Assembly: GCF_002694385.1 (NCBI RefSeq)
Contig: NZ_NZMB01000012.1
Location: forward strand, 40,778 to 104,777
Length of the DNA stretch: 64,000 nucleotides
DNA from: Sneathiella sp.
GTDB taxonomy: Bacteria > Pseudomonadota > Alphaproteobacteria > Sneathiellales > Sneathiellaceae
Direction: 5' to 3'
Made by a program: the position numbers and the translations under genes. This document shows, one piece after another, positions 27,297 to 63,971 of this stretch (positions are counted from its first letter, which is position 1; every line of letters begins with the position of its first letter). The notes under the pieces were generated by a model. That model saw nothing but the letters and a program-made list of their open reading frames with translations. It ran no database searches and was not told the DNA's origin.

Positions 27297-27697
27297 CAGG
27301 CCGGACGATTGTCAAAACCGGGGATGAGCTTCTGAAGCCTTGCAAGGATCTGTTTCGGATCTTCCGAAAATTGCAGACCAATCTTGTTGCCACGACGCCA
27401 GACCAGATCACAACGCAGAATGCCGAGCTGTGATGTCTGCAGCAGAAGGTTGTTCTTCTCAAAGAACAGCCCATCCACATCGATACGGGCACCATTCGCC
27501 GAAATATCCTTGATAATGCCGCAGACTTCCCGTTCTTCCTCGTGCAGACAGGCATTGCCCCGCTCCGCCCGGATAGTTGCCTGCCACTGGACATCTGCCC
27601 GGCGATATCGTCTGTCCGCTGCCGTACCGGTTGATCTGTGATCCTCCTCGAAGTCGAGTGCTCTCAACATTTTCTTGATATCATTTGCAATGATCAT
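27296..27697 (-). CDS. PilZ domain protein
   Basis: A 133-residue single PilZ domain, the common cyclic-di-GMP receptor module. Both binding motifs are intact: the arginine pair R29-x-x-x-R33 in RRYRRADVQW and D64-x-S66-x-x-G69 in KDISANGARI. Binding of c-di-GMP is therefore likely. The start is taken at MIIANDIKK (27697), since an upstream TTG/GTG extension is not PilZ-like; the ribosome site is weak. It is coupled by a one-base overlap to the receiver-like gene, suggesting that the two proteins act together. Confidence 0.85.
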   Translation of the reverse strand: MIIANDIKKMLRALDFEEDHRSTGTAADRRYRRADVQWQATIRAERGNACLHEEEREVCGIIKDISANGARIDVDGLFFEKNNLLLQTSQLGILRCDLVWRRGNKIGLQFSEDPKQILARLQKLIPGFDNRPA

Positions 27698-61059: not shown

Positions 61060-62520
61060 ATGAAACATTATGAGGAGCTTTCCGGGGGAGAAGGTCGGCG
61101 TGTTTTTTATCGCGCAGAACGCTTCAATGCCAAAACCTTGATGAGTAGTATATCGCCGATTGTCGAGATGGATGACCGATCTTTCGATATCTACGACATC
61201 AGCATGAGCGGAATAAGTTTTGTCAGCCCACAGAATTTTTCCTGGCTCGAAGACATGAATAAGGATGTTCCGCTGCAACTCAAGATCGGAACAACGGAAG
61301 TTTTCTCGGGAAATGGTAAAATCCGCCGGATTGAACCGCACGAAAATCAGCATAAGGTCGCTGTCGAGCTAACCCGCGGTTTTCTTGATATCAAGAAAAT
61401 TCTGGCGCAGCATGATGATCTCGCGTTGCAGCAGGCCGTGACTATCGGCCTCTCCGATCACTCTCGGCTTGTACCGGCTGCCTATAAGGAAGCAATCGGT
61501 GATGCAGTCTATATGTTCCGCTCCATACACAAGGTTCTCGACAAGGTTGAGGCCGATCTCGGGCGCGATGATTCCCGGCGCAGCGAACGCATAAAGGATA
61601 TTATCCTCGCCTGTGAAACGAAGGCATTGACCCGCTGGAGGGAAATTTCAAAAAAATGCCTGAAAATCACGGAAGAGCTGGGAGACGATAGCCTCGCCAT
61701 TGCCGCCGTCAAGCAGTATACGGAAATGGTGCTGACACCGGAAATTCTACCCGGAGCAAGCTGGGACCGCGCCTACAGCAAACCGCTCGGCTATCCGGGC
61801 GATTATCAGGTCATGAACTATGCCTATAATCTGACGCTGGAAGGCGACACGGCCTATGCAAAATTCTGCCACCGCCTCGGCACCTCAACAGGTGAGTTCA
61901 TCGCCACTCGCATGACAATGACCAAGCAGGCGATCGCTCGCCTCTGTACAGAAGCCGCCGCCCGTGGACGGAGCGATTTCAAGGCCGCGAGCCTTGGCTG
62001 TGGCCCCGCACAGGAAGTCGCCAATTATCTGAAAACGCCGAATATCCCGCTTCCGGTTGAGTTCACTCTCATAGATCAGGATCATGACGCACTCTCCTAT
62101 GCCTATAACAGCACCTATCCCGAGGTAGTCCGGCTCGATGGCATGGCCTGGGTTCGTTGCCTGCATGCCACATTCCTGGAGTTTCTGGCGACAGGCAAGC
62201 TGTTCAGCAAACTCGAAAAGCAGGATCTGATCTATGCTGTGGGTCTTGCCGATTATCTTGGCAAAAAGCGATCCACCAAACTGGTCAATGACCTGTACAG
62301 CAATCTGCGGCCAGGCGGGACGCTGATCATCGGCTGTATGCGTACATCGGAGACAAGCCTCAAATGGCAGGTCGAATATGTGGTGGACTGGACATTGGTC
62401 CATCGCACAGAACAGGAAATGTTCGAGCTTGCAGAAAATCTTGATCCGGCGGCGAAACGTGAAGTTATTGCAGATCCGACGGGTCATTGCCATCTTCTCT
62501 TCGTGACAAAGCCAGAATGA
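61060..62520 (+). CDS. PilZ domain-methyltransferase fusion protein
   Basis: A 486-residue protein. Residues of about 10-115 are a PilZ domain with both c-di-GMP motifs: R14-x-x-x-R18 in RRVFYRAER and D46-x-S48-x-x-G51 in YDISMSGISF. A helical linker follows (about 115-230), then a class I SAM-dependent methyltransferase: PLGYPGDYQVMNYAY (about 243), motif I ASLGCGPAQEVANYL (about 310), acidic motif FTLIDQDHDALSYAYN, and LRPGGTLIIGCM. The C-terminal part is like the family annotated as extracellular-factor/3-hydroxypalmitate methyl ester biosynthesis. ATG 61060 is used; a TTG 18 bases earlier is possible. Substrate unknown; regulation by c-di-GMP is inferred. Confidence 0.82.
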   Translation: MKHYEELSGGEGRRVFYRAERFNAKTLMSSISPIVEMDDRSFDIYDISMSGISFVSPQNFSWLEDMNKDVPLQLKIGTTEVFSGNGKIRRIEPHENQHKVAVELTRGFLDIKKILAQHDDLALQQAVTIGLSDHSRLVPAAYKEAIGDAVYMFRSIHKVLDKVEADLGRDDSRRSERIKDIILACETKALTRWREISKKCLKITEELGDDSLAIAAVKQYTEMVLTPEILPGASWDRAYSKPLGYPGDYQVMNYAYNLTLEGDTAYAKFCHRLGTSTGEFIATRMTMTKQAIARLCTEAAARGRSDFKAASLGCGPAQEVANYLKTPNIPLPVEFTLIDQDHDALSYAYNSTYPEVVRLDGMAWVRCLHATFLEFLATGKLFSKLEKQDLIYAVGLADYLGKKRSTKLVNDLYSNLRPGGTLIIGCMRTSETSLKWQVEYVVDWTLVHRTEQEMFELAENLDPAAKREVIADPTGHCHLLFVTKPE

Positions 62521-62573
62521 CGGAGGAAGCATTCAAGAGGGGGATCCGCTGTCCATAGCGGCGGAATGGATCA

Positions 62574-63971
62574 TTATCCTCTAGCGGCTTTTGCCCGACC
62601 ACTGTCCCCGTCGATCTGGCGATCCACCAGACGCTCTTTCGGGAATTCAACAATGGCGACCGTTCCCTCACCAAGGCGGCTGTCGAGTGTGATCGTCCCG
62701 CTATGCAGCTCCATGATATTTTTGGTAAGGGGCAGCCCTAGTCCTGTTCCATCATAGTTGCGAGCCATGGAGCTTTCTATCTGAACAAACGGATCGAAGA
62801 CCTTTTCGATATTTTCAGGATCAATACCAATACCCGTATCACGGATGCGGATCTGGAGGTTTCCGTTCTCAAGCGACTGGAAACCAATAGAAACCGATCC
62901 GCCTTTATGGGTAAACTTCACCGCATTGGAAAACAGATTAAGGAAGACCTGCGCCAGAAGCCGCGGATCGCCAATCATCCGATGATCCCGCGACGGAACA
63001 TCAAATATGAGGCGCACGCCCCGCTCCGCCGCATTATCGCGAATGACCCGCAAGGTTGAATTGACGGTATCAACGATGGAGACTTCCTCTTCCTGCAACA
63101 CCAGTTTGCCCGCTTCCGCCTTCGACAGATCGAGAATATCATTGATAATGCTGAGCAGATGCTGGCCACTGACATTGATGTCGTGGGAATACTCCTGATA
63201 TTGCTCCTTGCCGAGCGGGCCGAACATTTCTTTTTCCAGAATTTCCGAAAACCCGATGATAGCGTTAAGCGGTGTCCGCAGCTCATGCGACATGATTGCC
63301 AGAAATTCGGATTTCGAATGATTGGCCGCCTGGGCCTTTTCTGCCAGGATATCGCTTTTGACCCGTTCTTCATCCAGCATCTTCATATTGATAAAGTCGC
63401 GGCGCTGCGCCAGTTCCTGAAAATAAGCGGCGAAAACGCCCATCCCTGCCGCCGTCAGCAGGAAAAAGTCGTTGGCCATCAAAATCAGCAGCGGGATCGG
63501 ATTATACCAGATCGCCGCGATATGATAGGCCGCGATCAGGAACACCGTGACAAAGGACGCATACAGAAACCGTGTCGGCGGCAGGCAGCAACAGAAGATA
63601 ATCAACGGTGTCAGACCGGCGTAATAAAGATAATTTCCCGGCTCATCGGCAATGGCCGTCATCACAATAATACTGACGCCCGAGGCAAGCATGCAAAATG
63701 CCGCACCTGGCTGCGCGAAAATTGCGTAGTATTTCGTATAGGTCAATCCGAAAACGATCAGAAAAATCGGGATTGCAAAACAGAAGCGTATAATCGCCGC
63801 TTCCTTGAAAACCTCAGGAATGGCATAAAAGTCGAGGATTGAAAAAGCGGCATAAATAATAATGGCGGACAGAAGCGACAACCGCATGACACCAATTGAA
63901 CGGGCGATTGCGGTATCGTTATAAGCGCTTTCGACTTCATGATCGACAAAACGCAACGAAAATCGGTTCAA
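62574..63971 (-). CDS. Six-TM hybrid-free sensor histidine kinase
   Basis: A 465-residue membrane kinase. Six N-terminal helices (about residues 28-205) form an unassigned sensor, followed by a short coiled coil and the kinase core: H box FLAIMSHELRTPLNAIIGFS, N box NLFSNAVKFTHKGG, G1 DTGIGIDPENIEKVF and G2 GTGLGLPLTKNI. It has no receiver or HPt domain, and no response-regulator gene is adjacent. The TTG at 63971 has GGAACG before it. The frame stays open to the window end, so the true start may lie beyond 64000. It is convergent with the PilZ-methyltransferase gene. Confidence 0.9.
   Translation of the reverse strand: MNRFSLRFVDHEVESAYNDTAIARSIGVMRLSLLSAIIIYAAFSILDFYAIPEVFKEAAIIRFCFAIPIFLIVFGLTYTKYYAIFAQPGAAFCMLASGVSIIVMTAIADEPGNYLYYAGLTPLIIFCCCLPPTRFLYASFVTVFLIAAYHIAAIWYNPIPLLILMANDFFLLTAAGMGVFAAYFQELAQRRDFINMKMLDEERVKSDILAEKAQAANHSKSEFLAIMSHELRTPLNAIIGFSEILEKEMFGPLGKEQYQEYSHDINVSGQHLLSIINDILDLSKAEAGKLVLQEEEVSIVDTVNSTLRVIRDNAAERGVRLIFDVPSRDHRMIGDPRLLAQVFLNLFSNAVKFTHKGGSVSIGFQSLENGNLQIRIRDTGIGIDPENIEKVFDPFVQIESSMARNYDGTGLGLPLTKNIMELHSGTITLDSRLGEGTVAIVEFPKERLVDRQIDGDSGRAKAARG

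Follow-up and report, generated by a model that had tools for sequence, protein, structure and literature searches.

A conserved PilZ-methyltransferase fusion paired with a PhcS-like histidine kinase in Alphaproteobacteria: a candidate link between c-di-GMP and fatty-acid quorum signalling

The window examined here, a 64,000-nucleotide stretch of DNA from Sneathiella sp., carries at positions 61060-62520 a gene whose product is confirmed as a genuine and conserved protein comprising a PilZ domain, a helical linker and a class I methyltransferase. Judged by profile and tree, the methyltransferase is a distant relative of PhcB, and the gene that converges on it encodes a histidine kinase related to PhcS. 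We give slightly better than even chances to the reading that these two genes encode a c-di-GMP-gated synthase of a fatty-acyl methyl ester signal together with its receptor kinase. The wider proposal, that the pair represents a widespread alphaproteobacterial form of quorum sensing in which the ester synthase is itself a direct c-di-GMP effector and is read by a coupled PhcS-like kinase, is more tentative, and we place it somewhat short of an even chance. The strongest evidence for the reading is the convergent PhcS-like kinase, to which are added the fatty-acid-related third neighbours that occur beside the pair in other families.

The open reading frame is intact, with an ATG at 61060 that aligns with the start in most homologues, a stop codon ending at 62520, and 486 codons. 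Upstream lie a NUDIX hydrolase gene and a cluster conserved in the genus. Searches of NCBIfam, PADLOC and PDB sequences with the fusion protein returned nothing useful. The features of the locus are as follows.

61060..62520, plus strand: PilZ-methyltransferase fusion, 486 aa (ORF calls, full-length homologues)
61060..61383, plus strand: N-terminal arm and six-stranded PilZ barrel, residues 1-108 (model, Foldseek, Pfam PilZ in 30/33 homologues)
61099..61113, plus strand: RxxxR motif, R14-R18, in an arm that is conserved but disordered in the model (alignment; pLDDT <50 at residues 1-17)
61195..61212, plus strand: DxSxxG motif, residues 46-51 (D or N at 46, invariant S48 and G51 in 33/33)
61384..61749, plus strand: helical linker, residues 109-230 (model helices 111-131, 140-166, 174-206, 211-224)
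61780..61818, plus strand: family signature KPLGYPGDYQVMN, residues 241-253, with the PhcB counterpart KPLGYAGDYEMVN (alignment, PhcB comparison)
61966..62517, plus strand: class I SAM methyltransferase core, residues 303-486 (Pfam, alignment, Foldseek)
61993-62019, plus strand: SAM motif I, LGCGPAQEV, residues 312-320
62521..62573, no strand: gap between the convergent genes, 53 bp
62574..63971, minus strand: convergent sensor histidine kinase with a 6-TM PhcS-like sensor domain, HisKA and HATPase_c (Pfam, pairing, PhcS homology, co-occurrence)

The fusion gene is present in 23 of the 25 genomes of the genus, two of these copies being broken or partial: one is split into two frames, and another is represented only by a C-terminal fragment. 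Because the same domain order is found in full-length homologues across the genus and also in further families of the class, at identities as low as approximately 32%, the arrangement is not a product of chance. When 385 genomes were sampled evenly across the class, 35 of them, from 16 families, matched the methyltransferase; among these, one (G081) encodes a PilZ-less methyltransferase of another subfamily, and a second (G346) is fragmented over several contigs. Thirty-three full-length proteins were aligned for the residue counts given below. At one locus (L049 6592-9499, genome G010), the PilZ-methyltransferase gene and the kinase gene are each split in two, possibly through joint decay or sequence errors.

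The earlier note, made from the window alone, had read this gene as a PilZ domain followed by a methyltransferase and had placed the former within residues 10-115. The Pfam PilZ model (PF07238) does match there, at residues 42-105 (18.2 bits, E 0.003), but both this score and that of the genome match (21.5 bits) fall under the gathering cut-off of 22.5. Taken by itself, the profile match of the single protein is weak, and the assignment was therefore tested by family, structure and neighbourhood. The same Pfam model matches 30 of the 33 family members (best E 4e-5). An AlphaFold model of the full-length protein (mean pLDDT 90.1) contains six strands, a helix, the helical linker and the methyltransferase. 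As Foldseek returned only generic methyltransferases for this complete model, the N-terminal 124 residues were folded alone, giving a model with a pLDDT of 88.9 whose top matches in the PDB are nearly all PilZ domains, many of them bound to c-di-GMP. These include YcgR and VCA0042 with c-di-GMP, MotI, PlzA, BcsA, Alg44 and MapZ; the best match has an E value of 5e-4 and a probability of 1.00, and TM-scores normalized by query length are moderate (0.4-0.6). The fusion protein thus possesses the six-stranded barrel and trailing helix of a PilZ domain, and the proposed domain order is borne out by homologues, isolated-domain model and fold comparison alike. A second PilZ gene lies within the window at 27326-27613 on the minus strand (open frame of 154 aa; 36.3 bits, above the cut-off), and three more are found elsewhere in the genome.

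Both c-di-GMP motifs, which had been described as intact within the first 55 residues, are indeed present as R14-V-F-Y-R18 and D46-I-S-M-S-G51, and their chance occurrence is ruled out by conservation and by the fold match. Residues R18, S48 and G51 are invariant in all 33 aligned proteins, and position 46 is occupied by D in 27 and by N in six, such that the pattern (D/N)xSxxG is universal. The first arginine of RxxxR varies across the family, with R in 23 proteins, K in four, Q in four, and L and E in one each, whereas every aligned congener retains both R14 and R18. Conservation in the N-terminal domain is highest at residues 1-22, which include the RxxxR arm (mean majority fraction 0.73, compared with 0.47 for barrel residues 23-108), yet residues 1-17 are unstructured in the full-length model (pLDDT <50); a loop that becomes ordered by its ligand would look like this. 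GGDEF cyclases, nine matches to which occur in the Sneathiella genome, are present in all 17 further genomes tested.

It is conceivable, at perhaps one chance in five, that c-di-GMP binding has been lost from the PilZ domain, which would then have a structural or protein-docking role, as may also hold for the N-terminal beta domain of PhcB, and that the enzyme is ungated. The substitution of the first arginine by K, Q, L or E in ten of the 33 homologues accords with such a loss, as does the persistence in PhcB of a partly alignable N-terminal domain that is without the motifs; the invariance of R18, S48 and G51, the presence of D or N at position 46 in every protein, the retention of R14 and R18 among congeners, and the superior conservation of an unstructured RxxxR arm, a pattern to be expected of a ligand-ordered switch, argue against it. 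In some members of the family, for example those of f5, where position 14 is mostly Q or E, the standard c-di-GMP contact may be gone and the ligand may not bind.

In the second half of the protein, where the earlier note had located a SAM-dependent methyltransferase, the sequence LGCGPAQEV (residues 312-320) corresponds to motif I, and the block YPGDYQVMNYAY that it had singled out falls within the conserved KPLGYPGDYQVMN region. Several generic methyltransferase Pfam models match the fusion protein, all below cut-off. Residues G315, E319, D339, Y392, G395, D398 and Y399 are invariant among the 33 aligned proteins, consistent with a working class I SAM enzyme. CheR Pfam models match 26 of the 33 family members weakly, and the Foldseek hits for the isolated PilZ domain include MapZ-CheR1 complexes; both might suggest a CheR-like enzyme acting on a protein substrate, possibly the partner kinase, in which the MapZ-CheR1 type of control over chemoreceptor methylation would be combined in one chain. 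We regard this as very improbable, given that other methyltransferase models match equally well or better, that the long profile match is to PhcB, and that the recurrent third neighbours are lipid genes and not chemoreceptor genes.

A search of the phylum recovered homologues of approximately 470-510 codons with two histidine kinase genes after them on the same strand, and a profile search of named contigs places such loci in Cupriavidus, Ralstonia (R. pickettii and R. soli) and Paraburkholderia; R. solanacearum is not among the 80 loci of this comparison set. At one Ralstonia locus (L216) a kinase gene comes after that of the methyltransferase, and at another (L219) a receiver-kinase gene and then a receiver gene come next, on which basis we read the gene order as phcB-phcS-phcR-phcQ. 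Compared profile to profile, the window family and the PhcB proteins of Cupriavidus and relatives match with a probability of 99.94% and an E value of 2e-36 over columns 72-473. In the tree, PhcB proteins form their own clade (support 99/99), and the window family occupies a second clade (91/97) in which a cyanobacterial homologue is nested; the fusion methyltransferase falls outside the PhcB clade, and the branches separating the two groups are long (1.19 and 1.44 changes per column). On this comparison the fusion methyltransferase is a distant homologue of PhcB, belonging to a sister clade, and is not PhcB itself, and the large distance means that its substrate may differ. PhcB synthesizes the 3-hydroxy fatty acid methyl esters 3-OH PAME and 3-OH MAME, which are sensed by PhcS (PMC6989110, PMC11960443). 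The link to synthesis of 3-hydroxypalmitate methyl ester, which had been drawn from annotation, is borne out when the family is compared directly with the PhcB-type proteins of named phc operons. On one Paraburkholderia translucens contig (NZ_JAJITC010000006.1), two PhcB-type genes lie in opposite orientation in neighbouring stretches (L183 and L194).

The N-terminal region of PhcB, as seen in Ralstonia loci L196, L205 and L216, may be a relative of the PilZ domain that is without c-di-GMP motifs. A profile alignment of the two is only partial (28% probability over 45 columns), and so a degenerate PilZ domain in PhcB stays a suggestion. An adaptive mutation, phcB R22C, has been reported outside the methyltransferase domain (PMC6989110); when R. 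pickettii PhcB is counted from its GTG start, residue 22 is an arginine, which fits this mutation. That PhcB has no recognisable RxxxR or DxSxxG counts against a c-di-GMP gate, as this type of enzyme works without one.

The kinase gene (62574-63971, minus strand) is positioned 53 bp past the fusion stop codon, tail to tail with the fusion gene. When 16 neighbourhoods, one per family, were compared, the only two gene families common to most were this kinase and the methyltransferase. Forty loci of the class were examined, of which two at contig edges have no full kinase ORF; in all 38 measurable loci (16 families) the kinase converges on the methyltransferase. The intervening distance is 78 bp or less in 35 of these loci, some of which overlap, 151 bp in one (L097, G081), and approximately 1 kb in two (L076 and L091), each of these larger gaps being filled by one gene. 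Of eight further loci of family f5, seven have a convergent kinase, which lies adjacent in three and approximately 0.6 to 2.7 kb away in four; in the eighth (L233) it is not beside the methyltransferase gene. The genomes with strong matches to the transmembrane domain of the kinase (E 1.5e-29 or better) are precisely the 35 of the 385 that have the methyltransferase (Fisher p ~1e-50, a value that ignores the relatedness of the genomes), and 12 class genomes without the methyltransferase hold weaker relatives of this domain. General synteny is ruled out as a cause of the pairing, since outside the window's own family only the kinase stays adjacent in most lineages. Also ruled out is a generic transmembrane sensor common to many kinases of the same genome, in which the transmembrane profile matches this kinase and no second copy.

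By full-length hhalign comparison, the kinase matches PhcS with a probability of 99.9%. The transmembrane part alone matches at 91% (E 9e-7), whereas none of 16 shuffled or reversed controls exceeds 0.9%, and a plain HMM search with the transmembrane profile finds the PhcS transmembrane domains at E 3e-11. The 6-TM sensor domain of the kinase is thus, on profile evidence, homologous to that of PhcS, the receptor of the Phc signal. The phcBSRQ operon itself was not encountered around the fusion gene: only the convergent kinase is conserved beside it, and no phcR or phcQ homologue adjoins the pair, which weighs against the favoured reading.

Several further arrangements of these genes were observed. 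In genome G081 (L097 5379-8217) the same type of kinase lies tail to tail with the methyltransferase of a different subfamily that is without a PilZ domain. On the Pseudanabaena plasmid pPSE7367.01 (NC_019690; L221 5959-8578), a PilZ-less homologue and a kinase of the same type, with the same transmembrane domain, overlap tail to tail by a few bases, adjoining a gene for a single-domain response regulator and near a Tn3-family transposase. One small genome (L045 / G035) contains three matches to the kinase transmembrane sensor domain. A gene resembling FAD-dependent oxidoreductases by sequence lies beyond the end of the window (L035 9962-11299, minus strand); it follows the kinase in most, though not all, of the congeners examined and was not found beside the kinase in other families.

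Genes related to fatty acids recur as third neighbours of the pair in other families. FadL is an outer-membrane channel for the uptake of long-chain fatty acids, and a FadL/TodX gene (PF03349) adjoins the kinase in families f5, f11, f113 and f164, being the only FadL found in the f5, f11 and f164 genomes tested. A gene for an MMPL-family exporter occurs near the methyltransferase in six families (f4, f10, f91, f97, f116 and f123), directly upstream on the same strand at L044, L073, L085 and L090, and a few kilobases away in f97; MMPL-profile matches number 12-26 in each of these genomes, often with two in one protein, and proximity to MMPL is therefore a weaker argument. Of the single genes that fill the two larger gaps, the one at L076 encodes a fatty acid desaturase and the one at L091 a cyclopropane-fatty-acid synthase. 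At two f5 loci (L235 and L236) a SCO1-like gene intervenes, and the occurrence of lipid genes between the pair is therefore not an absolute rule. The Sneathiella pair has no third neighbours of this kind: neither MMPL nor FadL is encoded around its fusion gene, and no FadL was found in its genome, which also weighs against the favoured reading.

The desaturase, the cyclopropane-fatty-acid synthase and the lipid transporters among these neighbours would also suit a role in membrane homeostasis, in which the methyltransferase would act on a fatty acid or membrane lipid of the cell itself, the kinase would track the state of the membrane, and c-di-GMP would couple this to life on surfaces. We consider such a role unlikely, because enzyme and sensor are both homologous to the members of the PhcB/PhcS signal pair, and because the gene adjoining the kinase in four families is for FadL, an uptake channel of the outer membrane.

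For the favoured reading, that of a gated ester synthase and its receptor, we infer the product, the binding of c-di-GMP, the direction of gating, sensing by the kinase and the downstream regulator as follows. c-di-GMP would bind the PilZ domain through the RxxxR motif of the flexible arm and through DxSxxG, and this binding would alter the packing of the PilZ domain on the helical linker and methyltransferase, thereby setting the activity of the enzyme. The PhcB-like carboxyl methyltransferase would then use SAM to methylate a fatty acid, possibly hydroxylated, to yield a fatty-acyl methyl ester that exits the cell. This ester is predicted to be sensed by the convergent 6-TM PhcS-related kinase, which would signal to an unlinked response regulator.

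According to a published survey, the phc cluster belongs to Betaproteobacteria (PMC10653808). Our literature search, made in a library with few subscription papers and no bioRxiv preprints, found no report combining PilZ, a methyltransferase and 3-hydroxypalmitic acid methyl ester, and nothing joining a PilZ domain, a fatty acid methyl ester, quorum sensing and a methyltransferase; within that scope, papers naming both PhcB and PilZ use the latter in unrelated senses. The fusion may link c-di-GMP and fatty-acid quorum signalling in one enzyme. To our knowledge, the connections reported to date between c-di-GMP and quorum sensing act mainly via gene expression or c-di-GMP turnover. If the favoured reading is true, a synthase with its own c-di-GMP sensor would join the two systems in a single polypeptide, an intracellular second messenger would directly set the output of an extracellular signal, and Phc-type lipid signalling would reach many alphaproteobacterial families, each with a candidate receptor. 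Attention is also drawn to the N-terminal domain of PhcB as the site of the adaptive mutation R22C.

Among known systems, the PhcB proteins of Ralstonia, Cupriavidus and Paraburkholderia are most directly comparable, having an N-terminal domain, a helical region and a methyltransferase in the same order as the fusion, with which they share the motifs KPLGYxGDY, GCGPAxE and GL-x-DYL, and being likewise encoded next to a 6-TM histidine kinase gene. Unlike the fusion, PhcB has no recognisable c-di-GMP motifs and forms a clade of its own, and phcB is the first gene of a same-strand phcBSRQ operon, whereas the fusion gene is convergent with a kinase gene alone. PhcS resembles the window kinase in its homologous 6-TM sensor, with shared LD-Y-P and YYAGL stretches, followed by HisKA and HATPase_c, whereas the window kinase has a divergent kinase core and no adjoining PhcR or PhcQ partner. 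MapZ-CheR1 of Pseudomonas aeruginosa is a known case of a PilZ protein controlling a SAM methyltransferase, as is predicted for the fusion, but there control is exerted in trans by a separate protein, the methyltransferase is different, and its substrates are proteins, the chemoreceptors. Finally, in BcsA and Alg44 a PilZ domain is fused to a biosynthetic or export machine whose output it regulates, an arrangement that the fusion is predicted to share, although those machines serve polysaccharide synthesis and contain no methyltransferase.
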